Origin: an uncultured Dokdonia sp.
GTDB lineage: Bacteria; Bacteroidota; Bacteroidia; Flavobacteriales; Flavobacteriaceae
Length of the DNA: 64,000 bases
Assembly: GCF_947492535.1 (NCBI RefSeq)
Contig: NZ_CANLNH010000017.1
Coordinates: forward strand, 1 to 64,000
Direction of reading: 5' to 3'
Position 1 is the first letter of the stretch. Each line of letters begins with the position of its first letter. Shown piece after piece: positions 23,333 to 43,039 of this stretch. The notes under the pieces were generated by a model, which did no database searches, had not been told where the DNA came from, and was given only the letters and a program-made list of their open reading frames with translations. The position numbers and the translations under genes are program-made.

Positions 23333-24352
23333 TTATTTGCTACGTACTTTTTGTTCCCATGTCCATGCAGATGCCATTGCTTCGTCTAGGGTGCTTTTTG
23401 CTTTCCATCCAAGGTCTTCATTTGCTTTATGTGTATCTGCATAGGCTGCTATGACATCACCTTCTCGCTTATCAACAATTTTGTAATTGAGCGGTGTATT
23501 GGCTGCTTTTTCAAAAGAAGTAATGACTTCAAGTACAGAACTACCTACACCAGTTCCTACATTAAACACTTCGTAGTTATCTTTATTTTTCTCTTGAAGT
23601 AATCGTTCTAAGGCAACTACATGCGCCTTGGCTAGATCTACTACGTGAATATAATCTCGTATCGCAGTACCATCAGGAGTAGGGTAAGTGTCTCCAAATA
23701 CAGATAGCTGTTCTCTTAAACCTATAGCGGTTTGCGTAATAAAAGGAACTAAGTTTTGTGGAACACCTATAGGTAATTCTCCAATTTCTGCGGATGGATG
23801 TGCTCCAATAGGATTAAAATAACGTAGCGATATTGCTTTTACCTGTGAAGCTATTTTACACGTATCTCGTATAATTTCTTCTCCTATTTGTTTGGTGTTA
23901 CCATAAGGGGATTCTGCAGGTTTTACAGGTGCATTTTCTGTAATTGGTAATTCATCTGCTTGCCCATATACGGTACATGAAGAGCTGAAAATAAAACTAG
24001 CTTGATCCTTTTTTTGTAACTCCTGAAGTATATAAATTAACGTAGCAATATTATTTTCATAATAAAGCAATGGTTCTTTTACACTTTCTCCTACAGCTTT
24101 TGATGCTGCAAAGTGAATCACACCTGCAATATCTTGATGTCTATTGAAGAAGTCTTGAACTTTTGATTTTTCTCGTAAATCAAACTCTTCAAAAATAGGT
24201 GTAGTGCCAGTAATAGAAGTAATGCCTTTTAAGACCTCTTTTGATGAGTTTGAGCAGTTATCTATAATAACCACTTCGTGCCCATTGTTTTGTAATTCTA
24301 CAACGGTATGAGACCCTATAAATCCTAATCCTCCAGTAACGACTATCTTCAT
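23333..24352 (-). CDS. galE: UDP-glucose 4-epimerase (339 aa)
   Basis: NAD-binding motif GGLGFIG at residues 7-13, SSSCTVYG at 123-130, and catalytic Tyr150 and Lys154 in YGNTK place it in the extended SDR GalE family. The sequence MKIVVTGGLGFIGSHT at the N-terminus and the length are standard. It interconverts UDP-galactose and UDP-glucose, the last step of the Leloir pathway. It is the last gene of the minus-strand galactoside locus, with a 213-base gap containing repeats after the symporter gene. Confidence 0.95.
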   Translation of the reverse strand: MKIVVTGGLGFIGSHTVVELQNNGHEVVIIDNCSNSSKEVLKGITSITGTTPIFEEFDLREKSKVQDFFNRHQDIAGVIHFAASKAVGESVKEPLLYYENNIATLIYILQELQKKDQASFIFSSSCTVYGQADELPITENAPVKPAESPYGNTKQIGEEIIRDTCKIASQVKAISLRYFNPIGAHPSAEIGELPIGVPQNLVPFITQTAIGLREQLSVFGDTYPTPDGTAIRDYIHVVDLAKAHVVALERLLQEKNKDNYEVFNVGTGVGSSVLEVITSFEKAANTPLNYKIVDKREGDVIAAYADTHKANEDLGWKAKSTLDEAMASAWTWEQKVRSK

Positions 24353-24361
24353 TTTATTCTT

Positions 24362-24385
24362 GCGAATGCAGGAATCTCATCCTGC
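24362..24385. repeat. REP-like hairpin GCAGGA/TCCTGC
   Basis: GCAGGA (24368-24373) pairs with TCCTGC (24380-24385) after the word TGCGAAT. It lies 9 bases beyond the start codon side of galE, in a gap that also carries a composite repeat. Confidence 0.4.
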
Positions 24386-24516
24386 TATCTAAATTATTAT
24401 TTGATTAGATAAGTCTTTCAACTATCTATATATTCTATTTATTAATGTGTCTTGCCATTTAATATAGCATACGTTTTTACGTGTACCTTTATATACAAAT
24501 GACTATTGTTTTTATA

Positions 24517-24556
24517 CGCTCCTTCCTGCCGGCAGATAGGTTTGCGAAAGCGTATT
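24517..24556. repeat. Composite repeat: iterated palindrome interrupted by a second palindrome
   Basis: The outer parts ACGCT and TTTGCGAAAGCGT look like the two ends of the window's iterated palindrome. Between them lies CCTTCCTGCCGGCAGATAGG, centred on the palindrome CTGCCGGCAG. It may be one element inserted in another, or a separate repeat type. Confidence 0.45.
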
Positions 24557-24565
24557 CAGATTTAT

Positions 24566-26209
24566 TTAAAATATCAAGTACGTACTCAATACTAATAATG
24601 TAATAAGCCCACCTACGATATATGCATACTTCCAAGGGCTTGTATCTATTACTTCGGTGGTTTCAGGAACATAAATGTCTGTTTTTGGTTTTACCATTCC
24701 TATCACTAGCATAATAATAATGTTGACTACAAATAAAATTCCCATCACATGTAAAAAGTGAGGGAACGCTTCTGCTTTAATAATTGCCAGTTCAGCTATA
24801 TCTGTTATACCGTTTGTTTTTGCTTCAGCAAGAGCAGCTTCTTGGTATGATGGTCTCATAAATATTGTACACACATACATAATAACACCTACAATCATAA
24901 CGACTTTTGCGCCAAGAGCAGGTACTTTCTTTGTTAGTATTCCGATAATAACAACTGCTAAAATAGGCACACTTAAACTACCCAATGCTTGTTGGATATA
25001 ATCAAATAATCCTGCAGGTGCGTTTGCAATAAATGGGGCAATGGTCATAGAGACAATAGCCACAAGAAGTCCAAATAGTTTTCCAGCTTTTACAGTTTGA
25101 TGTTCAGAAGCATCTTTTTTGAAAAACTTCTTGTATAAATCAAATCCAAACAGGGTTGCACTACTATTTAATAAACTATTAAACGAACTTAAAACAGCGC
25201 CAAAAAGTACGGCTGCAAAAAATCCTAATAGGGCAGGAGGTAATACTTCTTTTACTAATTGTGGATATGCTTGATCTGCAGAACTAAGATCTCCATTAAA
25301 TACATTCCAAGCAATAATACCAGGAAGTACTACAATAACAGGAATAAGGAACTTGACAAAAGCGGCAAGCATCATTCCTTTCTGTCCTTCTTTTAAACTC
25401 TTAGCTCCAAATACACGTTGTAAAATCGACTGATTGGTTCCCCAATAATACATCTGAGCAATCATCATTCCTGTAAAAATAGTACCCACAGGTATTGATG
25501 AGGTCACATCTCCAGTAACATCAAATTTATCTTGATTTTCAGTCCATAAAGTACTAAGTCCAGCAAACATATCTCCATCGCCAATGAGTTTTAAACCAAA
25601 ATAAGGAATTAATAATCCTCCTATTAATAGTCCGATAGCATTGATCAAATCAGAAACTGCAACGGCTTTCAAGCCTCCAAAAATGGCATATATAATTCCA
25701 ATTGATCCAATACTCCATACACACAACCAGATCACAGAAGATTCTTCCCAGCCTAATAATGCAGGTAAATCAAACATGGTACTGAATGCAAGCGATCCAG
25801 AATAAAGAATGGTAGGTAATAATACAATGGCAAAGGCTATCAAGAATAATACAGATAATATAGCCTTTGTGTTTTCATCAAATCGTTTTTCTATAAATTC
25901 AGGAATTGTAGTAATTCCTCCTTTCATATATTTAGGGAGAAACCATACGGCAGTAATCACCATGGCAATAGCGGCTAGCGTTTCCCATGCCATTACTAAA
26001 ATACCTTCTGAAAATGCTTGCCCGTTGAGACCTACAATTTGCTCAGCAGATAGATTGGTGAGAAGTAAAGAACCTGCAATGGTAATAGCTCCAAGGCTTC
26101 TACCTCCTAGATAATATCCATCTGCTGATTTTTCGTCTGTTCCTCTTGTTTTCCACCAGGCAAAGCCTGCTACTAGTAGTGTAAATGCAATAAAAGAAAT
26201 GATTCCCAT
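24566..26209 (-). CDS. Sodium/solute symporter, SSS family, SGLT-like (547 aa)
   Basis: A polytopic inner-membrane protein with about 14 hydrophobic segments and the SSS layout: an early ADGYYLGGRSLGAITIAGSL helix-1 region, LSAEQIVGLNGQAF next to it, then YAIFGGLKAVAVSD in the middle and AAVLFGAVLSSFNSLLNSSA near the ion site. It matches the galactose/glucose-type branch more than proline or pantothenate carriers, so a sugar or sugar-glycoside substrate is likely. It lies between the fused kinase-dehydrogenase gene and galE. Confidence 0.85.
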   Translation of the reverse strand: MGIISFIAFTLLVAGFAWWKTRGTDEKSADGYYLGGRSLGAITIAGSLLLTNLSAEQIVGLNGQAFSEGILVMAWETLAAIAMVITAVWFLPKYMKGGITTIPEFIEKRFDENTKAILSVLFLIAFAIVLLPTILYSGSLAFSTMFDLPALLGWEESSVIWLCVWSIGSIGIIYAIFGGLKAVAVSDLINAIGLLIGGLLIPYFGLKLIGDGDMFAGLSTLWTENQDKFDVTGDVTSSIPVGTIFTGMMIAQMYYWGTNQSILQRVFGAKSLKEGQKGMMLAAFVKFLIPVIVVLPGIIAWNVFNGDLSSADQAYPQLVKEVLPPALLGFFAAVLFGAVLSSFNSLLNSSATLFGFDLYKKFFKKDASEHQTVKAGKLFGLLVAIVSMTIAPFIANAPAGLFDYIQQALGSLSVPILAVVIIGILTKKVPALGAKVVMIVGVIMYVCTIFMRPSYQEAALAEAKTNGITDIAELAIIKAEAFPHFLHVMGILFVVNIIIMLVIGMVKPKTDIYVPETTEVIDTSPWKYAYIVGGLITLLVLSTYLIF

Positions 26210-26277
26210 AGGTCGTTTAGTTTATAGTGTTGCAGTGAAAATATGAAATTTCATTGAATATTGGGTTGCTTTTTGAG

Positions 26278-26297
26278 TACGCTTTCGCGAAAGCGTA
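26278..26297. repeat. Iterated palindrome TACGCTTTCGCGAAAGCGTA
   Basis: Perfect 20-bp copy preceded by TGAG and followed by TAC, in the 128-base gap between the symporter and the fused glycerol gene. Confidence 0.9.
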
Positions 26298-26337: not shown

Positions 26338-29300
26338 CTATGCTTCAATTTCTTGATCATAATAATGTGATGCATCTTTTACTAACATATCCAGCCATTT
26401 ATTTTCATTAATCACACGAGCTTCATCCCATCCTAAATACTTGATGAGGTCTTCCTGTACAAGTTGTCTGTATGTATGAACACTATGTATGTCAAAATAA
26501 AGTCTTCCCGTTCTTCGTACGAAAAAATCGGCTAAAGAGTTGGTCATTTCATGGTGCACGCTATACCATACTTCAGCACGTATTAAGCGTTCTTCTACAG
26601 ATTCATTTAAGAAATAATCTATTTTCTGTATGATGTCGCTTGCTTGTTTTCCATAGGTAGTTGCAAGGTATTCGCTTTGATAACTATCAGTGATGCCTAT
26701 AGTTTTGAGCTGAGATGCAATCTCTTTTTCATAGGTATTCACCTCTTTTGTATCATTCATGGGAGAAGACGTAAGTGGGATACGTTCTGTATACGATTTG
26801 ATAAGATGTTGTTTTTTCTTTTCAGGAACACTCTTCAATACGGTATCAATCACACGTTGCGCCATTTTACGGTATCCTGTGAGTTTTCCTCCTGCAATAG
26901 AGATAAGACCTGTTTTGGAAACAAAGATTTCATCTCTTCTAGAAAGTTCTGAAGGATCTTTTCCATCTTCATGAATAAGGGGTCTTAATCCAGCCCAATT
27001 AGATTCAATATCTTCTATAGTGAGTTGTACATCTGGAAACATATTGTTTACAGCATCTAATAAATAGGTGGCATCTTCTTTCGTTGCTACTACTCGATTA
27101 AGGTTTCCATTATAGTTGGTATCTGTTGTTCCCACATACGTAGATCTGCCTCTTGGAATGGCAAAAATCATACGACCGTCAGGGACATCAAAGTAAATAG
27201 ATTGTGTTAATGGGAAACGTTCTCTTGAAAATACAATATGTACACCCTTGGTTAGATGGAGGTGTTTGTTATTCATAGAGTGATCTTTCTCTCTCACTAA
27301 ATCTACCCAAGGTCCTGCCGCAGATACATAATTTGTTGCTTTTAACTTAAAGCTACTTTTGGTATTATAATCATAACAATGTAGGTTTTTGATTTTTCCA
27401 TCATCGTCATAATTAAATGATTTCATCTCACAATAATTGATGACACAGGCTCCAAATGAAGCTGCTTTTTTAAGAAGCTCAATAGTAAGTCTAGCATCAT
27501 CGGTACGATATTCTGCATAATAACCACCTCCTACAAGATGTTCTTTATTAAGTAATGGTTCTTTACTTGCTGTTTCTTCTACAGAAAGCATTTTACGTTT
27601 GTCTTCTCCTTCAACATTTGCGAGGAAGTCATATACTTTTAATCCAATGGCAGTCATCATCTTTCCATAGGTGCCTCCTTCAATAAGGGGTAATAACATT
27701 TTCTCTGGAACCACAAGATGAGGTGCTAATTTATGTACGGTTGCTCGTTCACTACCAGATTCCTTTACAAGTCCAATTTCCATTTGTTTGAGGTAACGTA
27801 GTCCTCCATGAATAAGTTTGGTGGATTTGTTACTGGTTCCTGAAGCAAAATCATTTTTTTCTATAAGACATACATTCATACCTCTGGAGGAAGCATCTAG
27901 TGCAATACCTGCTCCCGTAACACCACCGCCTATAATAATAAGATCAAAGCGTTCTTTTTTAGCTCTTCGTAATTGCGTGTCTCGATCTAGAATAGAAAAA
28001 CGTATAGGGCCTTCTTCTTTTACAGAAAGCATGTTTTGATTAGAAGACTTGGTACGTGCGACGGCTTGTTTCCAGCCAGTATATTTCTTGGTTCTGGTAT
28101 ATTCGGTTATTTCAGGAGTGAATAAGGTATCTACTTCTCGTAATTTTGCAATGTCTTTTTTGGTCCAAATACCTGCTTTTATACCTGCTAAGAATGCAGC
28201 TCCAAGGGCAGTGACTTCAAGCATTTTAGGACGATCTACTTCTACATTTAGAATATCTGATTGGAATTGCATTAGATAATTATTTGCAGTCGCACCTCCA
28301 TCTACTTTGAGGGATTTCATTTGCTTACCACTATCTTCTACCATAGCTTCTAATACATCTCTAGATTGGTAGGCAAGTGCATCTATGGTTGCTTTGATAA
28401 TTTCATTTTTACCAGAATCTAATGTAAGTCCGTAGATAGCACCTTTTGCTTTCATATCCCAGTGCGGCGCACCGAGTCCTGCAAAGGCAGGTACAACATA
28501 TAAGTCGTCTGCTGAGGTGGTTGCCTCACAAATGGCTTCTGTTTCTTTGGCATGGTCAATCACCTGAAGTTTATCTCGTAACCATTGTACAGAAGCTCCT
28601 GCAACAAATACACTTCCTTCTAGGGCATATTTTATGTTATCAGTTTCTAAGCTTGCACAGAGTGTCGTTAATAATCCGTTTTTAGATTGGTATGGTTTTT
28701 TACCTGTATTCATAAGCATAAAACAGCCAGTACCATAGGTGTTTTTAGCCATTCCAGATTTATACCCTCCTTGTCCAAATAATGACGCTTGTTGATCTCC
28801 AGCCACTCCATAAATAGGAATCTCATGCCCTTTATATGTAAAGTGCCCAAAATCTGATGAAGAATGCTGTACCTTAGGAAGCATCGCTTTGGGAATTTGT
28901 AATGCATTTAGCATTTTTGAATCCCAATCTAGTTCTAAAATATTATAGAGTAAGGTGCGTGATGCATTCGAATGATCAGTTACGTGATGCTTTCCTTGTG
29001 TAAATTTCCAAATCAACCAACTGTCTATGGTTCCAAATAAGAGTTCTCCTTTCTCAGCTTTTTCTTGAGCTCCTTCTACATGATCAAGAATCCATCGTGC
29101 TTTTGTTCCAGAAAAGTAAGAATCGATAACAAGTCCTGTATTTTTTGCAACATACTCTTCTAACCCTTGTGCTTTTAATTGCTCACAAATTCCTGATGTA
29201 CGTTTATCTAACCATACAATAGCATTGTGTATGGGTTTGCCAGTAGTTTTATCCCAGACAACAGTAGTTTCTCGTTGATTGGTAATACCAATAGCTGCAA

Positions 29301-29520
29301 TTTGATCTATTGATATAGAAGATTTTTCTATAACGTCTTCAAATACTTCTTGTTGGTGTGTTACAATTTCAATAGGATCATGCTCTACCCATCCAGGTTT
29401 TGGATACTGTTGGGTTAGTTCTTTTTGAGCGATGCCGCATATGTTGCCTTTTTTGTCAAAAATGATGGCACGTGTACTTGTTGTGCCTTGATCAAAAGCG
29501 ATAATATATTCTTTACTCAT
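26338..29520 (-). CDS. glpK-glpD: Fused glycerol kinase and glycerol-3-phosphate dehydrogenase (1060 aa)
   Basis: One uninterrupted frame holds two complete enzymes. Residues 1-496 are glycerol kinase (IIAFDQGTTSTRAIIFD at the N-terminus, GGATANNYLMQFQSDIL in the nucleotide domain). Residues 497-1060 are FAD-linked glycerol-3-phosphate dehydrogenase: FDLIIIGGGVTGAGIALDAS with GGG at 531-533, then LIHGGLRYLKQ and a GGKLTGYR block. Together they convert glycerol to dihydroxyacetone phosphate. The junction has an ATG at codon 497, where a separate glpD would start. In another frame a TAA lies 9 bases before that ATG, so an indel could have joined two genes. It follows the alpha-galactosidase gene by 26 bases. 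Confidence 0.85.
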   Translation of the reverse strand: MSKEYIIAFDQGTTSTRAIIFDKKGNICGIAQKELTQQYPKPGWVEHDPIEIVTHQQEVFEDVIEKSSISIDQIAAIGITNQRETTVVWDKTTGKPIHNAIVWLDKRTSGICEQLKAQGLEEYVAKNTGLVIDSYFSGTKARWILDHVEGAQEKAEKGELLFGTIDSWLIWKFTQGKHHVTDHSNASRTLLYNILELDWDSKMLNALQIPKAMLPKVQHSSSDFGHFTYKGHEIPIYGVAGDQQASLFGQGGYKSGMAKNTYGTGCFMLMNTGKKPYQSKNGLLTTLCASLETDNIKYALEGSVFVAGASVQWLRDKLQVIDHAKETEAICEATTSADDLYVVPAFAGLGAPHWDMKAKGAIYGLTLDSGKNEIIKATIDALAYQSRDVLEAMVEDSGKQMKSLKVDGGATANNYLMQFQSDILNVEVDRPKMLEVTALGAAFLAGIKAGIWTKKDIAKLREVDTLFTPEITEYTRTKKYTGWKQAVARTKSSNQNMLSVKEEGPIRFSILDRDTQLRRAKKERFDLIIIGGGVTGAGIALDASSRGMNVCLIEKNDFASGTSNKSTKLIHGGLRYLKQMEIGLVKESGSERATVHKLAPHLVVPEKMLLPLIEGGTYGKMMTAIGLKVYDFLANVEGEDKRKMLSVEETASKEPLLNKEHLVGGGYYAEYRTDDARLTIELLKKAASFGACVINYCEMKSFNYDDDGKIKNLHCYDYNTKSSFKLKATNYVSAAGPWVDLVREKDHSMNNKHLHLTKGVHIVFSRERFPLTQSIYFDVPDGRMIFAIPRGRSTYVGTTDTNYNGNLNRVVATKEDATYLLDAVNNMFPDVQLTIEDIESNWAGLRPLIHEDGKDPSELSRRDEIFVSKTGLISIAGGKLTGYRKMAQRVIDTVLKSVPEKKKQHLIKSYTERIPLTSSPMNDTKEVNTYEKEIASQLKTIGITDSYQSEYLATTYGKQASDIIQKIDYFLNESVEERLIRAEVWYSVHHEMTNSLADFFVRRTGRLYFDIHSVHTYRQLVQEDLIKYLGWDEARVINENKWLDMLVKDASHYYDQEIEA

Positions 29521-29546: not shown

Positions 29547-31313
29547 TTAAAGATAAGTATTCTTAGATAGTTTTATTAACCCACTAGAAGGAACTTCAAT
29601 TTTCAAAATTCCTTTTTGTAATGATATAGATGATTCATGTGTTTTTTCTCCTGTACAGTTGTAAATGACGATATTATAATCCCCTAAATTATTTAAGCAA
29701 TCTATAATTACATGATCGTTTACTTGCCCATTTATGATATCAATTTTTGAAGCTTTCGATGTGATGGGAATGCTATAATTATCAAAAACACCAATAATAT
29801 GTTGATCATTCAAAAAAGATTCACATATAGGGTAATTTGCTAATGGTTTGTGAGGTGTAAATTCTCCTTTTAATAATGTCGTTGCATTCTGATTCCAGTA
29901 GTTTGTGTAAAATGCAATCATTTTTGCCTCATCTTGAGAGGTATCTTTTAATAAAACAGATAACTGAGGAACACCAAATAATGTATTGATAAGTTGTAAT
30001 GCCTTTATTTCAAGAGGTTCATCTTTATGATATGTAAACATATCACTATGAACAGCTGTATCTCCACAGATCATTTTTATATCGGCGATACGTACACGAT
30101 TCATGGCAGTATCACCAGGGCAATCAAATGCTCTAAACATATTTCCATATTTACGCATTGCTGGACCTGTATATTTTTGCCTAAACTCAATCACAACATC
30201 TTTCTTGATCGCTTTTAAAGAAGTGATAATGTCTGTTAATAATCTATCTACTGCTTCATTAATGGAAGAAAAATCTCTTCCATTTTCTTGTGTTAATATC
30301 GTGTCTGGATAGGCTCTAAATTCATCAATAAAATCCAGTTTAAAACCATCTAAATTCCAATTTGTAAGTGCTTTAGTATATAAACCAATAAGATATGCTC
30401 TCACTTCTGGGTATCTAGGATCAAATACAGGAGCCCATCGATGATTTTCAGTGAGAAACTTCCCTTTAAACTTTTGATACGCTTTACTGTATTTTCCACA
30501 AAAAGGAACAGAATACCATAAGGCTAATTTCATACCTGTATCATGAACTGCTTTTGTGAATTCAGCGAGATCAGGAATACGTTCTGGTTCCCAGTCTCCT
30601 GTATAGTCATAGCCTCTATTACTGTCTTTAGTTTGCCAACCGTCGTCCAATATCATGAGCTCATATCCTAATTTTGAAGCCAATTTACATTCTTGTAAAA
30701 GGAGTTCAGGTTCAAGATTTTGATGAAATTGATACCACGTTGAATACACTGGTGTTTGTGCGAGTGGTGGCGTAGTAATAGGTGTTAAATGTTCAAAACT
30801 TTCCCACCAAAGCCCTATGTCTTTTAATGCTTTAGAAAAATGACGATTGTTTTGATCTATTCGTAATTCTGTATAATATTCGGTAATCGCATGATGAGGT
30901 TCTGGAAATAATGTAATGTGGCAATAGATGCAATTATCTTCTTCTCTATACAATGCATTTAAAGATGTTGTATTGATCGCATCAGCACAAGCAAATGTAA
31001 GTGTGTTTGTGTCATCATGTCCATATAGAGATAGGACAGGTGCATCTACAGAAATACGAGATTCCATATGGTTTAATTCCCAGTCATCCATAATGCGTTT
31101 AGAAAAATCTGAAGTAGGTTTCCAAACTCCTTTTATGTTTATTGCAGGAATTTTCCAAGATATTGTTACAGGTACAGGAATGAACTCCTTATATGCTGAA
31201 AAGCGTATTGAATAAATATCTATATTTTTATCCTTCGTATGTGGCGTAATAGTAACATCAAAAGCATCTGAACTTTTGGTGATATTAAAACGATGTGTAA
31301 TTACTTCTTCCAT
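29547..31313 (-). CDS. Alpha-galactosidase, GH36 type, cytoplasmic (588 aa)
   Basis: The TIM-barrel core shows LILDDGWQ-type sequence (ELMILDDGWQTK), DPRYPEVRAYL, and LDGFKLDFIDEF with the nucleophile Asp327. FRAFDCPGDTAMNRVR contains Asp397, the best acid/base candidate. An N-terminal beta-sandwich and a C-terminal beta domain flank the barrel. No signal peptide or lipobox is present, so the enzyme acts in the cytoplasm, after uptake. GH36 enzymes release terminal alpha-galactose from oligosaccharides and galactosyl-glycerols. The start is 9 bases after the FG-GAP gene stop, so it is cotranscribed. Confidence 0.85.
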   Translation of the reverse strand: MEEVITHRFNITKSSDAFDVTITPHTKDKNIDIYSIRFSAYKEFIPVPVTISWKIPAINIKGVWKPTSDFSKRIMDDWELNHMESRISVDAPVLSLYGHDDTNTLTFACADAINTTSLNALYREEDNCIYCHITLFPEPHHAITEYYTELRIDQNNRHFSKALKDIGLWWESFEHLTPITTPPLAQTPVYSTWYQFHQNLEPELLLQECKLASKLGYELMILDDGWQTKDSNRGYDYTGDWEPERIPDLAEFTKAVHDTGMKLALWYSVPFCGKYSKAYQKFKGKFLTENHRWAPVFDPRYPEVRAYLIGLYTKALTNWNLDGFKLDFIDEFRAYPDTILTQENGRDFSSINEAVDRLLTDIITSLKAIKKDVVIEFRQKYTGPAMRKYGNMFRAFDCPGDTAMNRVRIADIKMICGDTAVHSDMFTYHKDEPLEIKALQLINTLFGVPQLSVLLKDTSQDEAKMIAFYTNYWNQNATTLLKGEFTPHKPLANYPICESFLNDQHIIGVFDNYSIPITSKASKIDIINGQVNDHVIIDCLNNLGDYNIVIYNCTGEKTHESSISLQKGILKIEVPSSGLIKLSKNTYL

Positions 31314-31322
31314 GTAAGCCTA

Positions 31323-34300: not shown

Positions 34301-34658
34301 TATTAATATCTACAATGCTTACCCCTGTTGCCCAACGATCAGTAACTACCCCAGAAGGAATGGTAATATCTCTGAATTTCATATTTCCTGTGTTGAGGTA
34401 TATAGCGCTAGCAACTTGATTGCCTGTAAATACAATGTCAGATAACCCATCATTATTAAAATCACCAATGCCTACACCGCCTCCGTTATAACAATATTGA
34501 AAGTTGATGACATTTATAGTATCATTTTCTGTGATTGTATTTTCAAATGTTATTTGGGAATGTGATGGAGGTACATACGAAAACAGTTGAGTTTTTGTAT
34601 CTCTTCCTTGACATGAGAAGTATAGTGCGATAAGAAAAATATACAGGCTATTCTTCAA
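31323..34658 (-). CDS. Large FG-GAP/VCBS-repeat lipoprotein with ASPIC/UnbV domain (1111 aa)
   Basis: Signal peptide with lipobox Cys16 (LYFSCQG). Many calcium-binding-type FG-GAP repeats of the form DxNxDGxxD are spaced through the protein (for example FNNDGLSDIVFTGNQV, DIDNDGDIDILLGNQG). An ASPIC/UnbV domain lies near residues 540-600 (IGAKVTMWQQGT, then IWPDGKSY). Expected as a surface or periplasmic binding protein of the SusCD locus. The iterated palindrome at 33792 is translated here as AEYAFAKADTD. It follows susD after a terminator-like hairpin. Confidence 0.85.
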   Translation of the reverse strand: MKNSLYIFLIALYFSCQGRDTKTQLFSYVPPSHSQITFENTITENDTINVINFQYCYNGGGVGIGDFNNDGLSDIVFTGNQVASAIYLNTGNMKFRDITIPSGVVTDRWATGVSIVDINTDGYDDIYINVGGAHCNNDCPNLLYINKGLNENGIPIFEESAKAYGLDDAQYSQQTLFFDYDSDHDLDAYIVRNGNTKYGRNNPIPKDKFPDHLQDVLLENKTKEGSSHPVFEDVSEEKGITHKGFGLGIAITDYNNDLLPDIYITNDFITNDVLYINQGSAAEYAFAKADTDILTTQTYNAMGVDIADINNDALPDIAVVDMLPNDYERQKKMLGFNNYDKFLLSQRNGYTPQYVQNTLQIHNGIHQGIALPASEVGYKAGIAKTDWSWAPLIADYDGDGQKDLYITNGYVKDITDLDFINYSGQNNVFGTPKSRAKKLQTLVQNLPGIYLPNFMFKNTGDSSFEDVSEQWIAPENSFSNGAAYADLDGDGDLDIIVNNINAPAFILENHVDKNANDYVRIQLKGAPKNKAAIGAKVTMWQQGTSQTHYQSVVKGYLSSVEPAIYFGIKAAPIDSLEVIWPDGKSYTTNEVSANSVTVLTYQDTATKKVSKNTPPTILQKRDHILSYKHSENPANDFIQQSLVPLQFNANGPVIIAGDIDGVLGDELFIGGNSKIPSQVLKENNQGTYEVIQTFTQNSDVTSALFVDIDQDNDLDLFIGYGGTDARDKVDEILLNTGKGNFVVPKELLVPIMDINTTSVTKTDYDQDGDDDLFVSGGVLAGSYPLGMESYLLENKNKKYHIVDTISNTNGFLKSSTWADITTDGTKELITIGHWNGVTAYTTKEHQLEEIPLQFKNENGASVSMQGWWNTIETADIDNDGDIDILLGNQGTNGFIKPSQEQPIYVYTKDFDTNGSIDPVLAQYFTQAQTSTLKPIHTRDDIFKQIVSLKKRYGTYSEFAKVDFKTLLNIQDIDTDTFHATTFESVYAENIGDDTFIIHALPQECQRAPIQDILIQDIDRDGYKDVLLVGNDYTAESNYGRHDALIGVFLKGSDKGFTVLKNQESGFIVPKQSNYITTAISNKKQVRVIASQSNEEACVFEINQGDSPTINE
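33792..33807. repeat. Iterated palindrome inside the FG-GAP gene
   Basis: Exact CGCTTTCGCGAAAGCG in coding sequence. Read on the coding strand it gives Ala-Phe-Ala-Lys-Ala, in the string EYAFAKADT. Confidence 0.9.
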
Positions 34659-34773: not shown

Positions 34774-36363
34774 TTAATACCCTTGATTCTGAGTTAGATT
34801 AGGGTTTGCTTGTAATTCTGATAATGGAATCCATAAAACTTCGTCTTGACTAGGTGTGAAAAATGCAGCAGGTCCCGCGAGTGATTTTGGATGATTTCCA
34901 TCAGCAACGGTAGATCCTTGACCAAGAATTTCATCTGCAATCCCCCATCTTACAAGGTCAAAGAAACGGTGTCCTTCTCCTGTTAATTCCATTACACGTT
35001 CATCTCTAATTGCTTGTCGTAAATCTGCTTGTGATATGTTATTAGCTAATGTGCTGATTTGAGCTCTATCACGTACTTGATTTATAAAACCAACAGCTTG
35101 TCCAGTAGCACCACTTTCATTGAGTGCTTCTGCTAGCATTAGTAATACATCTGCATAACGTATGATACGCCAATTTGTTCCTAAATCATTTCCAAATCCA
35201 GAAATTGAAGAACTAGATAATCCTGATTCAATACCTGTGTATTTTACAGAAAAAATAGGCTCTACTCCTAGTGCATTTATAGTTTCTATACTAGGTGCAA
35301 AATCTTCTAAATAAGGTGCTCCTGCATACCCTTCTGCGCCTGGATAATCAAATACCATCGTAGCATTACGTCTCACAGTATCTCCATTTGCATCGAAAAT
35401 ATCACGAATATGTGGGTTTATAACATGACCTTGATCTAAACTTACATGAGGTGGCGAGTAATCAATATGCCAGTTTGATTGTGTTCCTGTAAGCGGAGTG
35501 TCTGATCCCCATACAAAGTTATCTTGTCCTACATATTGTAATTCGTAAATAGATTCACTGTTATTCTCAAGAGATGAGTCAGAAGAAAAATTATCCCCAT
35601 AGTTTGCACCTGAGAGTAATGAATATCCTAATGTTGTTACCGTAGTAAAATCTGCAGCCGCATTGGCCCAGTCTTGCATATATAAATAGGTTTTACCACG
35701 TAAAGCTAAAGCAGCTCCTCTTGTTGGACGTCCTAAATCTTCAGATCCCCATGTGTCTGGTAATCTATTAACTGCTTCAGTAAGATCTGCAATAATAGCT
35801 TCATTAAACATGGCAGGAGTAGCATTGGTTGGGAAAAATTCATCTGGGTTTTGAGGGTCTGGTGTTTGCATTACTAATGGTGCTGTTCCAAAAAGATTTA
35901 ATAAATACCAGTTGCAAAATGCACGTTGGAAATGTGCTTGTCCTAAAATTTCGTTTTGAACGTCTCCAGATAGGACTCCGTTTTCTGCATCTTCTTCAAT
36001 AATTCTGTTAGCTCTAGATATAGATTGATATAATTGTGGATACATATCTACAGCCCATCTTGAGATGCCAGGTTGTCCTTCTAATGTAGACATGGTCGTG
36101 TTTTGCTGGAATGGAATTACATTATAGGCATCAGAACGAAGCATAGCTCCAGTATGAATCACACGTCCCCAAAAGAAAACAGCAGTAATAGGATGATACA
36201 TACCATTTACAGCAAGTCTAAAATCACCTTCAGATTGGAAAAATTCAGGCTCTGCTACATTATTTGGATTTGAAATATCTAAGTCTTCTTCATCACAGCT
36301 ATAATAAAGTACTACAGCAAATAGCAGTATTATAACTGGGAATAGTTTTTTAATTGTTTTCAT
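34774..36363 (-). CDS. SusD/RagB-family outer-surface lipoprotein (529 aa)
   Basis: The signal peptide ends in a lipobox with Cys23 (YYSCDEEDLDISN). The acidic residues right after Cys are the usual surface export signal. The mature part has the helical SusD layout with RANRIIEEDAENG, an early AHFQRAFCNWYLLNLFG block and a C-terminal RWGIADEILG block. SusD lipoproteins lid the SusC channel and bind incoming oligosaccharides. The gene ends before the attenuator-like hairpin and starts 20 bases after the susC stop. Confidence 0.9.
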   Translation of the reverse strand: MKTIKKLFPVIILLFAVVLYYSCDEEDLDISNPNNVAEPEFFQSEGDFRLAVNGMYHPITAVFFWGRVIHTGAMLRSDAYNVIPFQQNTTMSTLEGQPGISRWAVDMYPQLYQSISRANRIIEEDAENGVLSGDVQNEILGQAHFQRAFCNWYLLNLFGTAPLVMQTPDPQNPDEFFPTNATPAMFNEAIIADLTEAVNRLPDTWGSEDLGRPTRGAALALRGKTYLYMQDWANAAADFTTVTTLGYSLLSGANYGDNFSSDSSLENNSESIYELQYVGQDNFVWGSDTPLTGTQSNWHIDYSPPHVSLDQGHVINPHIRDIFDANGDTVRRNATMVFDYPGAEGYAGAPYLEDFAPSIETINALGVEPIFSVKYTGIESGLSSSSISGFGNDLGTNWRIIRYADVLLMLAEALNESGATGQAVGFINQVRDRAQISTLANNISQADLRQAIRDERVMELTGEGHRFFDLVRWGIADEILGQGSTVADGNHPKSLAGPAAFFTPSQDEVLWIPLSELQANPNLTQNQGY

Positions 36364-36383: not shown

Positions 36384-39300
36384 TTAAAATGACATTTGTA
36401 TACCCATTATAAGAGTGCGAGGTCTAGGTTGTGCTCTAATATCTAATCCTCTATCAAAGACAGCGTCAGAAGCAAAAGTAGGATTAAATCCAAAAAAGCC
36501 TCTATTTGTACCTAATCCAGCATTATTAGATCCAACTTCAGGATCATAACCAGAGTAATTTGTAATTGTAAATAAGTTCTGAACATTTATAAAAGCACGT
36601 GCATTTGAAACCCACTCTTTTCCAATAAAATCAGTAAAATTATATCCTAGTTCAATTGTTTTTAAACGAAGGAAAGAACCATCTTCAACAAAGAAATCTG
36701 ACGGTAATTGATTTCCTGCAGGATCTTGTACAGACACTCTAGGTAAATTTGTATTCGGATTTTCAGGAGTAAATGCATTTCTAACAATACCTAGTTTATT
36801 ATCGTCTAAGAAGAAATATCCAAAAAACTTAGTGACATTGTAAATCTCATTTCCTTGTACTCCATTAAAAAATGCTGATAAATCCCACTTTTTATAATTT
36901 GCAGAAAAATTAATACCATATGTAAAATCTGGTGTAGGGTTTCCGATAGCTGTTTGATCTTCATCATTTATACGACCGTCTCCATTTACATCAACTCTTC
37001 TAAAATCTCCTGGTTGTAATAAAGCTCTTCTATCTGGGTCATTTGCAAGAAATGGATCATTGTCTATCTCTGCTTGATCGTTATAAATTCCATCTGTTTT
37101 AAATCCGAAGAAAAAACCTAATGGCTGTCCTACTTCAAAACGATTTGCTCTCAATCCTTCCTCATTATAAGAAGGACCTACAATTGGATTAGGAGAGCTA
37201 GTAAGTTCATTTCGAATAGCAGATAAATTGAAGCCTACGTCAAAAGTGAAATCTCCTCCTTTGTCATAATGGTATTGTGCCTCAAATTCAAATCCTTTAT
37301 TATTAATAGAAGAAGCGTTCTGAAATACAGGAGTTACAGATCCATTAGAATCTGGAATAGCTACTGCTTGTATAACATCATCATTGTCTCTATTAAAGTA
37401 ATCTAAACTTAATTTTAAATCATTATCAAGTAATGCTGCATCTACACCAATATTAATTGTTGTAGAGGTTTCAAAACTCAACGTTGGGTCAACAATAGAG
37501 GTAATGGCAAATCCTGGAATTTGCCCTGAAATACCTCCTACTGTAATTGGAGAGGTAGAACCTACAACAGATTGATTAGAGAATGGCGGAACATTTTGAG
37601 AACCTAATTCTCCATAACCAGCCCTCAACTTTAGACTATTAAAAAGACCATCTTTATTAAAGAAATCTTCATCGCTAATTACCCAACCTGCAGAGAATGA
37701 GGGAAATGTTCCTTCGTTGAAACCATCAGAAAAAAGCGAAGTCCTATCACGACGCACAATGGCTGTAAATAGATATTTCTTATTGTAATTATAATTAATA
37801 CGCCCAAAAACAGAGAAAAGCTTATTGTCAAAACGACCTCCTCCAGAGTTGATGATATTATCAGCAAATTGTGCAACATTCGTAATACTATTACTTGGTA
37901 ATCCTTCTGCGTAGATGGCAAGACTATTGTCTGTGATGTCTTGACGTGCGCCTCCTAATAATACATCAAAATTATGATCTCCAAGACTTCTTTTGTAATT
38001 GATAGTTGGTTCTACGTTTGTTGCATAACGTTCTCCTCTAACTTCTGTTAAGTCATTAAGTGCATTTAGGTTGAATACCTGATCAAATACTGGCGAATCT
38101 ACATTTGGTCCGCCTAAGTTAAAGATAGGCTGAAAGTTATTTCTGTAAATACTTGTGTATTCTGTACCAATGTTCAATTTAGCAGTAAGCCCTTCTATAA
38201 TTTCATAAGAAAAATTGATGTTTCCTAAGAAGTTACGCTCTGTATTTTGGTCATTTACGAGTTGTGCTTGCGCAAATTTATTAGCGCCTCCAACACCAAA
38301 GGTATTACCATCTACAGCTTCAAATCCTCCTAAATTTCCAGGAACAAAAGGTCTTATGATAGGAACAGTACCTCCTTGATTACCAAAAGCATTATTTCGT
38401 GTAAAACGATTTTCAGAAAAACCAAATGATTCTTGGATTTTTAATTTACCTAGTTTAAATTCACTATTCAAGCGTATATTTTTACGATTGAAATCTTCAC
38501 TAATTAGTAAACCTTCTTCATCATAATAGTTGGCACTAAAGAAATATCTTGCATTTTCACCGCCACCAGATACATTAAATCCATAATCTTGAATAATACC
38601 TGAATTAATAGTTAAGTCTTGAAAATCAGTATCGATTCCTGGGTTTTGAATATTTCCTTCAAGACCATCATTAATAAGTCGTTGGTTAAGGAAAGCAATA
38701 TATTCAGGACCATTCAGGAAATCAAGTGTTCTTCCCTGTGTATTTATACCACTTCTTATATCAATGTTTACAGTAGGAGCAGTGTCAGTTTTACCTCTAT
38801 TTGTAGTTACGATAACAACCCCATTAGCAGCACGCGATCCATAAATAGCGGCTGAAGTTGCATCTTTTAATACTTGGATGTTTACAATATCTTTTGCATT
38901 CAAATAATTAATATTGTCAGATATAGCTCCGTCTACTACATATAAAGGAGCAGAATTTGTTAAGGAACTTACCCCACGTACAAAAACATTTGCTGGGCTC
39001 CCAGGAGCACCCCCCGCAGTTTCAACCTGCACCCCAGCTAATTTCCCTTGTAATGCTGAAGTTGGGTTTGCAGTAACTACCTGTGCAATATCTTCCGTTT
39101 TTATCTGTGAGATAGCACCTGTGACATCTCGTTTAGATTGAGATCCAAATCCTACAACAATTACTTCATCTAATGCAGCTGCATCTACTTGCATTACTAC
39201 ATTAATAATGGTTTGTCCATCTACAGGGACTTCTTGTGTCGTAAAACCTGTATAAGAGAAAACGATTATGGCATCATCAGTAACATTTGAAAGTGTGTAA

Positions 39301-39506
39301 TTACCATCAAAATCAGTAGTTGTTCCATTTTGAGTACCCTTAACAAGAATATTTACACCAGGTAATGGTCCTAATTCTTCTGTTACGGTTCCAGTTATTG
39401 TTTGTTGTGCATATAAACAACTGGAAATAATGACCATTAGAAGCGTAACAATAGGTTTGAGTTTTGTTAGATTCATACAATTGGTTTTTATAAATTGATT
39501 AGACAT
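36384..39506 (-). CDS. SusC/RagA-family TonB-dependent outer-membrane transporter (1040 aa)
   Basis: A signal peptide (cleavage near LYAQQT) is followed by a carboxypeptidase-regulatory-like domain (ITGTVTEELGPLPGVNILVK), then the plug (VIVVGFGSQSKRDVTGAIS, then LYVVDGAISDNINYLNAKD), then a 22-strand barrel ending in RTLIMGIQMSF. The start may be M11 at 39476, just before LTKLKPIVTLLMVI. The 39506 ATG gives a longer N-region. A palindromic operator candidate covers the -7-like TACTTTTG sequence about 50 bases upstream. Uptake of a galactoside is inferred from neighbouring genes. Confidence 0.9.
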   Translation of the reverse strand: MSNQFIKTNCMNLTKLKPIVTLLMVIISSCLYAQQTITGTVTEELGPLPGVNILVKGTQNGTTTDFDGNYTLSNVTDDAIIVFSYTGFTTQEVPVDGQTIINVVMQVDAAALDEVIVVGFGSQSKRDVTGAISQIKTEDIAQVVTANPTSALQGKLAGVQVETAGGAPGSPANVFVRGVSSLTNSAPLYVVDGAISDNINYLNAKDIVNIQVLKDATSAAIYGSRAANGVVIVTTNRGKTDTAPTVNIDIRSGINTQGRTLDFLNGPEYIAFLNQRLINDGLEGNIQNPGIDTDFQDLTINSGIIQDYGFNVSGGGENARYFFSANYYDEEGLLISEDFNRKNIRLNSEFKLGKLKIQESFGFSENRFTRNNAFGNQGGTVPIIRPFVPGNLGGFEAVDGNTFGVGGANKFAQAQLVNDQNTERNFLGNINFSYEIIEGLTAKLNIGTEYTSIYRNNFQPIFNLGGPNVDSPVFDQVFNLNALNDLTEVRGERYATNVEPTINYKRSLGDHNFDVLLGGARQDITDNSLAIYAEGLPSNSITNVAQFADNIINSGGGRFDNKLFSVFGRINYNYNKKYLFTAIVRRDRTSLFSDGFNEGTFPSFSAGWVISDEDFFNKDGLFNSLKLRAGYGELGSQNVPPFSNQSVVGSTSPITVGGISGQIPGFAITSIVDPTLSFETSTTINIGVDAALLDNDLKLSLDYFNRDNDDVIQAVAIPDSNGSVTPVFQNASSINNKGFEFEAQYHYDKGGDFTFDVGFNLSAIRNELTSSPNPIVGPSYNEEGLRANRFEVGQPLGFFFGFKTDGIYNDQAEIDNDPFLANDPDRRALLQPGDFRRVDVNGDGRINDEDQTAIGNPTPDFTYGINFSANYKKWDLSAFFNGVQGNEIYNVTKFFGYFFLDDNKLGIVRNAFTPENPNTNLPRVSVQDPAGNQLPSDFFVEDGSFLRLKTIELGYNFTDFIGKEWVSNARAFINVQNLFTITNYSGYDPEVGSNNAGLGTNRGFFGFNPTFASDAVFDRGLDIRAQPRPRTLIMGIQMSF

Positions 39507-39549
39507 GCTTTGTGTTTTGTAGTTTAAATAATGCTATGATACACTATGC

Positions 39550-39564
39550 TACTTTTCAAAAGTA
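39550..39564. promoter_or_regulatory. Candidate operator at the susC promoter
   Basis: TACTTT-TCA-AAAGTA, a perfect inverted repeat. Read on the minus strand it contains TACTTTTG, matching the TAnnTTTG promoter element, so a bound regulator would cover the promoter. The same half-sites and 3-base spacer occur at 40734-40748 next to the GntR-type regulator gene. Confidence 0.5.
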
Positions 39565-39701: not shown

Positions 39702-40718
39702 CTATAAAGAGTTTCGTTGTCTTAGATACGTAGGAATCGTTTCTTGGATAGGATTTCCATCTTTGACATAGGCAGCAGCTTTTTTGGCCATTAAGGTAAA
39801 GTCTGTAGAGATTGTGGAGATTCCGCCAAAGGCTATTTCCTTTACAATATTATCATCATGTGCTAATATGCCGATATCTTGTCCAATACGATATTCAAGC
39901 TTTCGAGCATCTTTTAAAATTTGCCATAGGCTCGAATCTGCAATCGTGAAAAAGACCGTTCTTTTTTTAAGTAGTTTAGAACGGTAATCAGGAAATACTT
40001 CCCCTTTGATGTTGTAGTCTGTTATAAATCGTTGAAAGGCTTTTAAAATCCCTTTTGGTAAGTCTGTATTTGCTTTAAAGAATAAAATCATTTTATCATA
40101 TTCTTTAAGACGTGGGGCAAGTTCTACAAGTTTATTATAGGTGATTTCTTCAAATTCTTGCGTTATATAAGAATATATAGAAGGGAGTTTTAAATGGCGG
40201 TCAACGATTAAAAGTCTATCTGGAGGTATTGTTTCCATAAGTGGAATAACTTCAGGGTCTTGTATAGGAGCAATCACATAGGCTCCATATTTTCTACTTA
40301 TGTTATCCATGATCGTTTTGAAAAGACTAAGGTTGTTGTGATGAAAAAAAATATCAATTTGAAATCTTTTCCCTAATTCTTTTCTAAACGTATTGTAAAA
40401 ATCTTCTTGAAAACTATGAAATGCAAATAAAATTAAGGCAACCTTTAATGTCGTATTTGTTTCTTGACTTATTATAAAATACCCCTTAAGGTTTTTAGAC
40501 TCTACAAGTCCTCGTTCTTTTAATTCTGTATATGCTTTTACTATAGTTTTACGGGCATATCCTATTTCGGCAACCATCACATTAATAGATGGTAGTTTGT
40601 CTCCAACACTTAATACACCTGCGTCAATGGCATTCATAATCCCATGAACGATTTGTTCATGTTTAGATATAGAAGGAATATGTTGTAAATCGTATATTTT
40701 TTCGAACAACGAAGACAT
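39702..40718 (-). CDS. GntR-family regulator with LacI-like sensor domain (338 aa)
   Basis: Residues about 12-80 are a winged helix of GntR type (GDKLPSINVMVAEIGYARKT is the recognition region). The remaining about 250 residues fold like a periplasmic-binding-protein/LacI sensor (YGAYVIAPIQDPEVIPLMET, DRLLIVDRHL, then RTVFFTIADSS), so it should bind a sugar effector. Bacteroidetes regulators of this type control sugar loci. The gene is divergent from galK and next to susC, and the palindrome at 40734 lies 16 bases upstream of its start, implying autoregulation. Confidence 0.85.
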   Translation of the reverse strand: MSSLFEKIYDLQHIPSISKHEQIVHGIMNAIDAGVLSVGDKLPSINVMVAEIGYARKTIVKAYTELKERGLVESKNLKGYFIISQETNTTLKVALILFAFHSFQEDFYNTFRKELGKRFQIDIFFHHNNLSLFKTIMDNISRKYGAYVIAPIQDPEVIPLMETIPPDRLLIVDRHLKLPSIYSYITQEFEEITYNKLVELAPRLKEYDKMILFFKANTDLPKGILKAFQRFITDYNIKGEVFPDYRSKLLKKRTVFFTIADSSLWQILKDARKLEYRIGQDIGILAHDDNIVKEIAFGGISTISTDFTLMAKKAAAYVKDGNPIQETIPTYLRQRNSL

Positions 40719-40733
40719 ATGATGTAATTAGGA

Positions 40734-40748
40734 TACTTTGCTAAAGTA
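40734..40748. promoter_or_regulatory. Candidate operator upstream of the GntR-type regulator gene
   Basis: TACTTT-GCT-AAAGTA, a perfect inverted repeat with one more matching base on each side (ATACTTT/AAAGTAT). It shares half-sites and spacer length with the site at 39550-39564. Located between the regulator and galK. Confidence 0.55.
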
Positions 40749-40777
40749 TTATTTTAATAAATATAACTCAAAATAAA

Positions 40778-40806
40778 TTGATTATTCTATAGGATTGTTA
40801 TTTTTG
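40778..40806 (+). promoter_or_regulatory. Candidate galK promoter
   Basis: TTG (40778-40780), 18 bases, TATTTTTG (40799-40806): a close match to the Bacteroidetes TTG/TAnnTTTG consensus. Expected start of transcription is near 40812, about 40 bases before the galK ATG. Confidence 0.6.
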
Positions 40807-40852
40807 CGAGTAGACTAGAGTAGCACAGATTTTAAATGTAGTATTTATAGCT

Positions 40853-41998
40853 ATGAATGAACAAATTACATCTTTTGTAAACTCGTTTAAGAGTGAATTA
40901 AAAGTAATATCACCTGGTAGAATCAATTTTATTGGAGAGCATACCGACTATAACAATGGTTTTGTGCTTCCTACCGCTATTGATAAGAAAATTACATTTT
41001 CTTTTAGAAAGGCTTCTTCTAAAACTCAGTGTACTATTTTAAGTACAACATATCAGAAGCTTTTTACTTTTGCTATTGATGAAATTACAATTAGAGAAGC
41101 TACTTGGGAGAATTACATCGTAGGGGTGATTGCAGAAATACAAAAGGTAACTAATGGTGTTGGTGCTTTTGATTGTATTATAGATAGTGACCTTCCGCTA
41201 GGGAGTGGTGTAAGTTCTTCGGCAGCCTTAGAATGTGGAATCGCTTATGGAGTGAATGCACTTTTTGAATTGGACATGTCTACATTGCAAATGATACAAT
41301 TATCACAGAACGCAGAGCATAATTATGTAGGGACAAAATGTGGTATTATGGATCAATATGCAGTAATGAAAAGTAAAGAGGGAACTGTATTGCTTTTAGA
41401 TTGCTTAGTGAATAAACATACATATATAGATGTAAATTTTGATCCGTATGTTGTATTGCTTTTAAATACAAATGTTTCTCATAATCTAGCGTCTAGTGAG
41501 TATAATACGCGTAGAGAAGAGTGTGAATTTGTAGTACAAATGATTCAAAAAGAGGATGCTAAAGTGTCTTCTTTAAGAGATATTACACTTTCAAAATTAG
41601 AAGAATATAAGAGTCGATTGTCAAGTGTTCATTATGAAAGAGCGGCATATGTTTTAGAAGAAAATGAGAGGGTTCTAGAGGCAGTTGCCTATTTAAGAAC
41701 TGGAGATTTAAAGCAATTTGGTTCTTTGATGTATGCTTCACATAGAGGACTACAGCATCAATATCATGTAAGTTGCCCTGAGTTAGACTTCTTAGTAGAT
41801 TTTTCAGAAACAAAAGAAGAAGTACTTGGAGCAAGAATGATGGGAGGTGGTTTTGGTGGTTGTACAATTAATTTAATTCATAGAGATATGGTAGATACTT
41901 TTATTAAAGAAGCATCAAAAGCATATAAAAAGACGTTTGATATAGATCTAACATCATTTGTAACCGTTCCGAGTCAAGGAACATCAATGTATTCATAG
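40853..41998 (+). CDS. galK: Galactokinase (381 aa)
   Basis: GHMP-kinase motifs are all present: PGRINFIGEHTDYNNG (residues 21-36), the ATP loop LPLGSGVSSSAALE near 114-127, and MMGGGFGGC from residue 329. The GEHTDY sequence is specific for galactokinases. The enzyme phosphorylates alpha-galactose to galactose 1-phosphate in the cytoplasm. It is the first gene of a galK-galT unit, three bases between stop and next start, divergent from the regulator. Confidence 0.95.
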   Translation: MNEQITSFVNSFKSELKVISPGRINFIGEHTDYNNGFVLPTAIDKKITFSFRKASSKTQCTILSTTYQKLFTFAIDEITIREATWENYIVGVIAEIQKVTNGVGAFDCIIDSDLPLGSGVSSSAALECGIAYGVNALFELDMSTLQMIQLSQNAEHNYVGTKCGIMDQYAVMKSKEGTVLLLDCLVNKHTYIDVNFDPYVVLLLNTNVSHNLASSEYNTRREECEFVVQMIQKEDAKVSSLRDITLSKLEEYKSRLSSVHYERAAYVLEENERVLEAVAYLRTGDLKQFGSLMYASHRGLQHQYHVSCPELDFLVDFSETKEEVLGARMMGGGFGGCTINLIHRDMVDTFIKEASKAYKKTFDIDLTSFVTVPSQGTSMYS

Positions 41999-42001
41999 TA
42001 T

Positions 42002-43039
42002 ATGGCATCTTTACAAGAACACCCGCATAGGAGATTTAATATCTTAACAGGAGAATGGATTCTTGTGTCTCCACATAGAACGAAACGACCTTGGCAAGGT
42101 AAAAGTGAAACTCCTGCTTTATTAGAATCAATCTCTTATGATTCAACCTGTTATTTGTGTCCAGGCAATGAACGAGCTGGGGGTGTTATAAATCCAAAGT
42201 ATAAAGCGCCTTATGCGTTTACCAATGATTTTGCAGCATTACTTTCAAATACATCGTCAGAAACAGTGCAAAATGGCTTACTACTTGCAAAAGGAGAACA
42301 AGGAGAATGTAGAGTTGTTTGCTTTTCTGAAAATCACTCTTTAACGTTACCACTTATGGAGGTTGAAGACATTGAGAAAGTAATTTCTTTATGGCAAGAA
42401 GAATATGCTACTTTGGGTGGGAAACAAGAGATTAATCATGTGCAAATATTTGAAAATAAAGGACCTATTATGGGGTGTAGTAATCCGCATCCGCATGGGC
42501 AAATATGGTCGCAAAGTACAATTCCTGAAGAAGTAGTTAAAAAAACAGATAGACAATCATCCTATTGGAAAGAGCATGGGCGTTCTCTTTTAGGAGATTA
42601 TATCAATCAAGAGCTCGAAACTAATGAACGTATCATTTTTGAGAATGAACATTTTGTTGTTTTAGTTCCTTATTGGGCAATATGGCCATATGAAACGATG
42701 ATTGTACCCAAAAGGAAAGTTGCTGCTATAACTGATTTAACAGCAGTAGAAAAAATGAGTTTTGCAGAAGCTATAAAGAGGCTTACGATTAAGTATGACA
42801 ATATTTTTAAAACTTCTTTTCCGTATTCTTCAGGGATACATCAAGCTCCAACAGATGGAGAAAAGCATCCTGAGTGGCATATGCACATGTCGTTTTATCC
42901 GCCATTGTTGAGGTCGGCTACGGTAAAGAAATTCATGGTAGGGTATGAGTTATTTGCCAATCCACAGCGTGATATTACGGCTGAACAAGCTGCGGCAACT
43001 ATAAAAGAACAAAATGAGGTGCACTATACACTTTTATAG
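42002..43039 (+). CDS. galT: Galactose-1-phosphate uridylyltransferase (345 aa)
   Basis: The catalytic motif NPHPHGQIW (residues 161-169) carries the uridylylated histidine pair His163/His165, a few residues before or after the usual numbering. Cys50 and Cys53 (CYLC) lie at the structural zinc site. GEWILVSPHRTKRPWQG near the N-terminus is a family signature. It transfers UMP from UDP-glucose to galactose 1-phosphate. With GalK and GalE it completes the Leloir pathway. Confidence 0.95.
   Translation: MASLQEHPHRRFNILTGEWILVSPHRTKRPWQGKSETPALLESISYDSTCYLCPGNERAGGVINPKYKAPYAFTNDFAALLSNTSSETVQNGLLLAKGEQGECRVVCFSENHSLTLPLMEVEDIEKVISLWQEEYATLGGKQEINHVQIFENKGPIMGCSNPHPHGQIWSQSTIPEEVVKKTDRQSSYWKEHGRSLLGDYINQELETNERIIFENEHFVVLVPYWAIWPYETMIVPKRKVAAITDLTAVEKMSFAEAIKRLTIKYDNIFKTSFPYSSGIHQAPTDGEKHPEWHMHMSFYPPLLRSATVKKFMVGYELFANPQRDITAEQAAATIKEQNEVHYTLL

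Follow-up and report, generated by a model that had tools for sequence, protein, structure and literature searches.

The locus and its proposed function

Positions 23333-43039 of a 64,000-nucleotide stretch of DNA from an uncultured Dokdonia sp. (the window) hold one coherent block of genes, which brings together import by a SusC/SusD pair, a GH36-fold enzyme here called GH36L, a fusion of GlpK and GlpD, a symporter of the SSS family and the Leloir genes. We propose that this is probably an operon of the polysaccharide utilization locus (PUL) type whose substrate is a small alpha-galactosyl-glycerol; that floridoside or isofloridoside is the likeliest of these is an inference. A preliminary description of the window had placed SusC/SusD, a GH36 enzyme, GalK, GalT, GalE, GlpK-GlpD and an SGLT-like symporter in this region, and all of these genes are found there.

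In the scheme that we propose, the heteroside would cross the outer membrane via SusC/SusD together with an FG-GAP protein, and would then pass intact through the inner membrane via the SGLT-type symporter. It would be split in the cytoplasm by the GH36-fold enzyme, the galactose being processed by GalK, GalT and GalE, and the glycerol being converted to dihydroxyacetone phosphate by the GlpK-GlpD fusion. A GntR-type regulator would act on a direct-repeat operator lying over the presumed transcription start of susC, and perhaps also at galK. It would probably act by repression, which the substrate or a product would relieve. There may be a dedicated floridoside regulon that is widespread in marine Bacteroidota, in which one GntR-type regulator and its operator join GH36L, the importers and glycerol catabolism, with glpK/glpD of two lineages recruited in cis or, in other genomes, controlled in trans; we judge the chances of this wider proposal to be evenly balanced.

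The operator and the proposed regulon

Two samples were analysed. A survey of 299 genomes of the same family gave full-length GH36L homologues in 23, of which 17 have a close form (at least 54% identity) and six only a distant form (41-47%); one of the 17 also has a second, distant copy. A set of loci was made from the best 80 of 166 confirmed relatives from genome contigs, and is hence biased toward near relatives; six of the 80 have less than 6 kb on one side of GH36L.

The sequence upstream of susC in the window is AGTAGCATAGTGTATCATAGCAT, i.e. a direct repeat adjoining a TACTTTTG box; TAnnTTTG is what we take to be the Bacteroidota -7 consensus. The operator (39531-39553, minus strand) comprises two copies of GTAKCATAGN just downstream of the box. 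A GntR relative stands directly before SusC in 53 loci, and a matrix for the operator was trained on 52 of these, excluding the window but including its close relatives. Scanning the window with this matrix gave 39.4 bits at 39531-39553 and 15.6 bits at 40809-40831; 10 shuffled windows gave at most 12.2 bits. Of the 80 GH36L loci, 68 have an operator scoring above 14 bits (52 of these trained the matrix), compared with none of 16 glp loci without adjacent GH36L, and the sites stand before SusC, GH36L or, in locus L179, the regulator gene. A strict form of the pattern was found in 12 of the 299 genomes, and its reversed control in none. Eleven of the 12 have GH36L (10 the close form and one the distant), while the strict form is absent from seven of the 17 genomes with the close form. 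In G032, which has the distant form, a GntR relative (56% identity) lies beside the operator. A pattern allowing three mismatches proved unspecific, since it matched 17 of 17 genomes and the reversed control behaved similarly in many; leads from it were limited to matches with few mismatches.

Ten genomes having close GH36L and unlinked glp genes were compared with 10 hand-picked controls, none of which has a full-length GH36L match and some of which have short, weak ones. The operator was found at the unlinked glpK or glpD in five of the 10 GH36L genomes and in none of the controls (Fisher p = 0.016), and this supports the reading as a galactosyl-glycerol locus that the preliminary description had offered. 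The sites are at the start of glpK in G018 (14.6 bits), G236 and G001 (both 32.4 bits), and at the start of glpD in G211 (20.3 bits) and G086 (21.4 bits). Each score was reached by none of 200 shuffles, and the top score at the glp regions of the controls was -2.8 bits. The positives represent four genera, since G001 and G236 share one, and in G120, G211, G215 and G086 the stretch tested held only glpD. The glycerol genes therefore seem to be part of the GH36L regulon, which makes an alpha-galactosyl-glycerol the best reading of the substrate.

A possible weaker second operator (40809-40831, plus strand, 15.6 bits) lies about 22 bp upstream of galK. The same score is seen at galK only in Dokdonia pacifica (L103), a close relative. 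Chance sites away from gene starts reach 15.2 and 16.1 bits in L253 and L190, so that single sites of 15-16 bits prove little.

We also note a strong copy of the operator (35.0 bits) in G236 (L251:7097), 68 bp before the gene of a TetR-type regulator far from the locus.

Two lineages of glycerol genes

A tree of GlpK (66 rows) was calculated by a careful method, which flagged L199 as a long branch, and trees of GlpD and GH36L by a quick one; loci L064-L086, several of which duplicate other loci, were excluded from the GlpK and GlpD trees and from the symporter alignment. Thirty-five in-locus GlpK sequences (the window and 34 loci) group with nine relatives from loci lacking GH36L. The other four (L124, L127 and L168 of Maribacter, and L172 of Cellulophaga) lie across a branch with 100/100 support, together with 16 unlinked GlpKs of housekeeping type and two more. 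A single clade of all in-locus GlpKs was rejected by the approximately unbiased (AU) test (p = 4e-5), and the GlpD tree is divided likewise. The split may reflect independent recruitment or replacement in place; the association was re-made either way. When the presence of glp genes is mapped on the GH36L tree six changes are needed, four of them forced by well-supported branches.

Distribution of GH36L and its neighbors

The loci come from Dokdonia, Aquimarina, Maribacter, Zobellia, Algibacter, Flavivirga, Tenacibaculum, Kordia, Polaribacter and others, including two Saprospiraceae. The 9.5 kb on either side of GH36L include an SSS symporter in 76 of the 80 loci (70 of the close type), SusC in 61, SusD in 62, ASPIC in 59 and GntR in 48; GlpK is present in 38, GlpD in 39 and the fused form in 22, with GalE in 16, GalK in 5 and GalT in 1. 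Since 39 of the 80 have glpK and/or glpD within this distance, their presence beside GH36L is not peculiar to the Dokdonia genome, as it would have to be for the preliminary description to be refuted on this point; the co-occurrence that it had wished to see fixed across flavobacteria is frequent but not fixed, the other 41 loci being without linked glp. The glycerol genes are therefore a frequent and apparently co-regulated partner of GH36L, and not a universal one.

All 17 genomes with close GH36L have a match to GlpK/GlpD, compared with 168 of the 299 overall (p = 3.8e-5), and all 17 have a match to GalK, compared with 166 of 299 (p = 3.1e-5); glpK/glpD is linked to GH36L in seven of the 17, as is galK. 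These p-values ignore kinship and genome size, and we have therefore given more weight to the operator and the trees.

Several observations weigh against an alpha-galactosyl-glycerol. Linked glp genes are missing from the 41 loci noted above, and the operator is absent at five of the 10 unlinked glp regions; moreover the G018 site is weak, being no stronger than the chance sites of 15-16 bits described above, and leaving it aside gives 4 vs 0 (p ~0.04). Unlinked galK was rejected as a member of the regulon in trans, there being no site above 9 bits in 10 genomes (L240-L249), and the divergent galK genes of L111, L154 and G177 have no operator. G222, which lacks GH36L, has the operator and a GntR relative (54% identity) before a set of SusC, SusD and ASPIC genes. 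Lastly, an SSS symporter occurs with GlpK/GlpD in G206, G218, G148 and G034 where there is no match to GH36L or PF02065 (the only alpha-galactosidase family covered by the search in genomes without GH36L), and only G218 of these has a GalK match; the symporter and glycerol genes can therefore serve something else.

Some of these points would suit a general alpha-galactoside locus, for melibiose, the raffinose family or algal galacto-oligosaccharides, in which the glycerol genes are co-regulated because glycerol or glycerides accompany the galactoside. It would account for the loci without linked glp and for the G222 set with its operator and regulator relative. In addition, seven distant GH36L homologues start with signal-like stretches, and some are near GH97 (L082) or, by eye, sulfatase-like genes, so that they probably work outside the cytoplasm. 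Such a locus leaves unexplained both the two glp clades beside GH36L and the operator at unlinked glp genes, and no fructosidase, inositol or mannan genes are present in the window block or, by eye, among the recurrent same-strand neighbors; we regard it as quite unlikely. A galactosyl-glycerol derived from galactolipid, e.g. the digalactosyl-glycerol headgroup, would likewise give galactose and glycerol, other enzymes removing the acyl chains and the beta-galactose. A relative of GH2 beta-galactosidases is indeed divergent beside the locus in four of the 80 (L145, L148, L160 and L163, of which L145 was scanned with Pfam). Yet the operator sites listed for these four loci are all before SusC and none before the GH2 gene, the window block has no beta-galactosidase or lipase, and neither was recognised by eye in the same-strand clusters of at least four loci, making this an unlikely source of the substrate.

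A protein belonging to one particular cluster is encoded after GH36L in 18 of the 80 loci, in the same direction and with a median gap of 11 bp. The sole scanned member of this cluster is a Mac/LacA-like acetyltransferase, an arrangement that recalls lacZYA. A gene for a HAD-type phosphatase of ~261 amino acids recurs in some Aquimarina loci (among L108, L111, L123, L113 and L092), and a similar one lies between GlpKD and GalE in G144.

The GH36-fold enzyme

GH36L (29547-31313, minus strand, 588 amino acids) is a putative cytoplasmic alpha-galactosidase. The GH36 assignment made in the preliminary description is weak by sequence, the Pfam Melibiase family (PF02065) giving 33.1 bits against a cut-off of 27 and covering residues 193-336 only, but it holds by fold: GH36L has the GH36 fold, and the top matches are GH36 alpha-galactosidases and a related galactosaminidase. 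It resembles TmGalA of Thermotoga maritima (1zy9) and AgaA of Geobacillus stearothermophilus (4fnr) in the fold and in the column of the nucleophile aspartate. It differs from them in having only 12-16% identity over structural alignments of GH36-type rows, and in that the Pfam GH36 N-terminal domain is not matched. D327 sits in that column, which we take to be that of the GH36 catalytic nucleophile, and all 24 sequences compared have it. D397 is invariant as well; that it is the acid/base residue is a guess. By eye no signal peptide is evident in GH36L of the window and 16 close relatives, and no alpha-galactosidase of the GH27 type (PF16499) was found elsewhere in the genome.

The fold bears on whether the substrate could be glucosyl-glycerol, or some other heteroside that is not a galactoside. 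Glucosyl-glycerol is described as a product of many cyanobacteria (PMC10873239), and in a Maribacter locus (L177:16595-18520) an MGH1-like hydrolase gene, of a family whose name links it to glyceryl glycosides, comes after glpK-glpD; this locus has no operator above 14 bits. With galactosidases and a galactosaminidase leading the fold matches, galK in or beside seven of the 17 close loci and GalK in all 17 genomes, such a substrate is very improbable indeed.

The symporter

The best relative of the Na+/solute symporter (24566-26209, minus strand; NF007790, 714.9 bits) in the PDB is vSGLT (2xq2, E = 7e-72), and it is of SGLT type both by kinship and by its sugar-site residues. In all 71 close symporters of GH36L loci, that of the window included, vSGLT positions 69, 88, 263, 294 and 428 are kept, while S91 is replaced by A and N260 by Q; all seven are positions that we take to bind the sugar. 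Eight further SSS proteins in GH36L loci are of a distant type. A substrate of pyranose type in an altered pocket is consistent with transport of an intact galactoside, which it fits without proving.

The conserved positions would also suit a symporter for a monosaccharide or another solute, in a locus serving galactose and glycerol freed outside the cell. SSS, GlpKD and GalE occur without GH36L in G206, of the same genus, and SSS and GlpKD occur near GalK-GalT in G218. Release outside the cell is at odds with the apparent lack of a signal peptide in GH36L, and there is no recurrent same-strand secreted galactosidase, though in one Aquimarina locus (L113:10725-12959) the operon includes a classic GH36 gene with three domains, which stands between those of GH36L and the GlpK-GlpD fusion. 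We find it unlikely that the locus works in this way.

The absence of a glycerol facilitator gene, which the preliminary description found in keeping with glycerol release inside the cell, is true of the locus but says little, and we have dropped it as evidence. The genome has two MIP channels, both nearer the aquaporin Z model than the aquaglyceroporin model (one above the aquaporin Z cut-off and the other below). The local absence is uninformative because unlinked glpK/glpD stretches are mostly without an adjacent MIP too (19 of 20), as judged by BLAST to two aquaporin-like references, by which divergent channels may be missed. An MIP adjoins one of the 20; a further stretch, with glpK of G215, also has one, which is nearer the aquaglyceroporin model than aquaporin Z.

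Organization of the block and other features of the window

On the minus strand, the order as transcribed is GntR regulator, SusC, SusD, FG-GAP/ASPIC, GH36L, GlpK-GlpD fusion, SSS symporter and GalE. SusC and SusD are adjacent and accompanied by a regulator and a glycoside hydrolase, as in a SusCD PUL. The regulator (39702-40718) has a winged helix of GntR type (PF00392, 41.1 bits) and a PBP-like effector domain (PF13377, 23.4 bits, below the cut-off of 26.5). The SusC-like TonB-dependent transporter (36384-39506; TIGR04056, 792.5 bits) is followed by the SusD-like lipoprotein (34774-36363; PF07980, PF14322) and by the FG-GAP/ASPIC-UnbV protein (31323-34658), which has a TTG start and by eye a lipoprotein-like N terminus, and is probably at the cell surface. 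The preliminary gene list, all entries of which are real, had omitted this last protein and the regulator.

The GlpK-GlpD fusion (26338-29520, 1060 amino acids) comprises a glycerol kinase (residues ~2-495) and an FAD glycerol-3-phosphate dehydrogenase (residues ~521-1035). It is the sole convincing GlpK/GlpD in the genome, where one other match has 23% identity to the kinase half. GalE, the UDP-glucose 4-epimerase (23333-24352), scores 398.6 bits with TIGR01179 (cut-off 262.3). Galactokinase GalK (40853-41998; TIGR00131, 310.2 bits, cut-off 226.65) and galactose-1-phosphate uridylyltransferase GalT (42002-43039; PF01087, PF02744) are on the plus strand, divergent from the rest, and a tRNA-Val follows GalT. 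A PHROGs search with a downstream open reading frame of 231 amino acids gave no match.

A cluster for gliding and type IX secretion adjoins the locus (44606-51508), in which a C25 peptidase and PorV come after GldJ, and a Flavo-1 small RNA is found at 14773-14863 (58.7 bits). The palindrome CGCTTTCGCGAAAGCG occurs seven times in the 64 kb (one copy with a mismatch), at 3524, 10592, 26280, 33792, 43241, 52061 and 62301, where none is expected. It is an iterated genomic palindrome with a spacing of ~7-16 kb, and one copy lies within the ASPIC gene.

Comparison with known systems

Alpha-galactosyl-glycerol ranks among the main photosynthetic products of red algae and serves them as an osmolyte (PMC8509150, PMC10972271); it is present in them as floridoside and isofloridoside (PMC8509150). 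Isofloridoside was obtained from galactose and glycerol with a GH36 alpha-galactosidase by reverse hydrolysis (PMC8509150), and the breakdown of floridoside in red algae is attributed to their own alpha-galactosidase (PMC10972271). The latter is the same reaction as that proposed here, but it occurs inside the alga and involves no bacterial uptake system.

No bacterial system for uptake and degradation of floridoside or galactosylglycerol was found among the matches listed from the open-access literature, assessed from their titles and the opening lines of the abstracts and with most subscription papers outside it, nor among the open-access matches listed for glucosylglycerol use, the GlpK-GlpD fusion or Zobellia with GH36; the word floridoside is absent from the available part of a Zobellia transcriptome paper (PMC5613140). 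As far as the literature was searched, no bacterial route for the main soluble photosynthate of red algae has been defined before, and this would be the first if our proposal is true. It would provide a marker operon and operator for the flux of carbon between red algae and bacteria, and it would mean that PUL machinery serves a solute of ~254 Da.

The glucosylglycerol phosphorylase route of Marinobacter (PMC10873239, PMC11787520) is likewise a bacterial use of a glycosyl-glycerol osmolyte. It differs in enzyme family (GH13_18) and in the sugar, and the portions of these papers at hand do not mention a PUL; a search of such text from PMC10873239 for the term 'glycerol kinase' found no instance. 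With the PULs of Bacteroidota, including the GH36-containing beta-mannan PUL of Bacteroides ovatus (PMC5094572), the Dokdonia locus shares the SusC/SusD pair, a regulator and a glycoside hydrolase. Its target, in contrast, is apparently a small osmolyte heteroside, and it adds a putative cytoplasmic hydrolase, an SGLT-type symporter, and glycerol and Leloir catabolism. Within the open-access literature searched, a PUL-type operon for such a solute appears to be a new version of the known PUL design.

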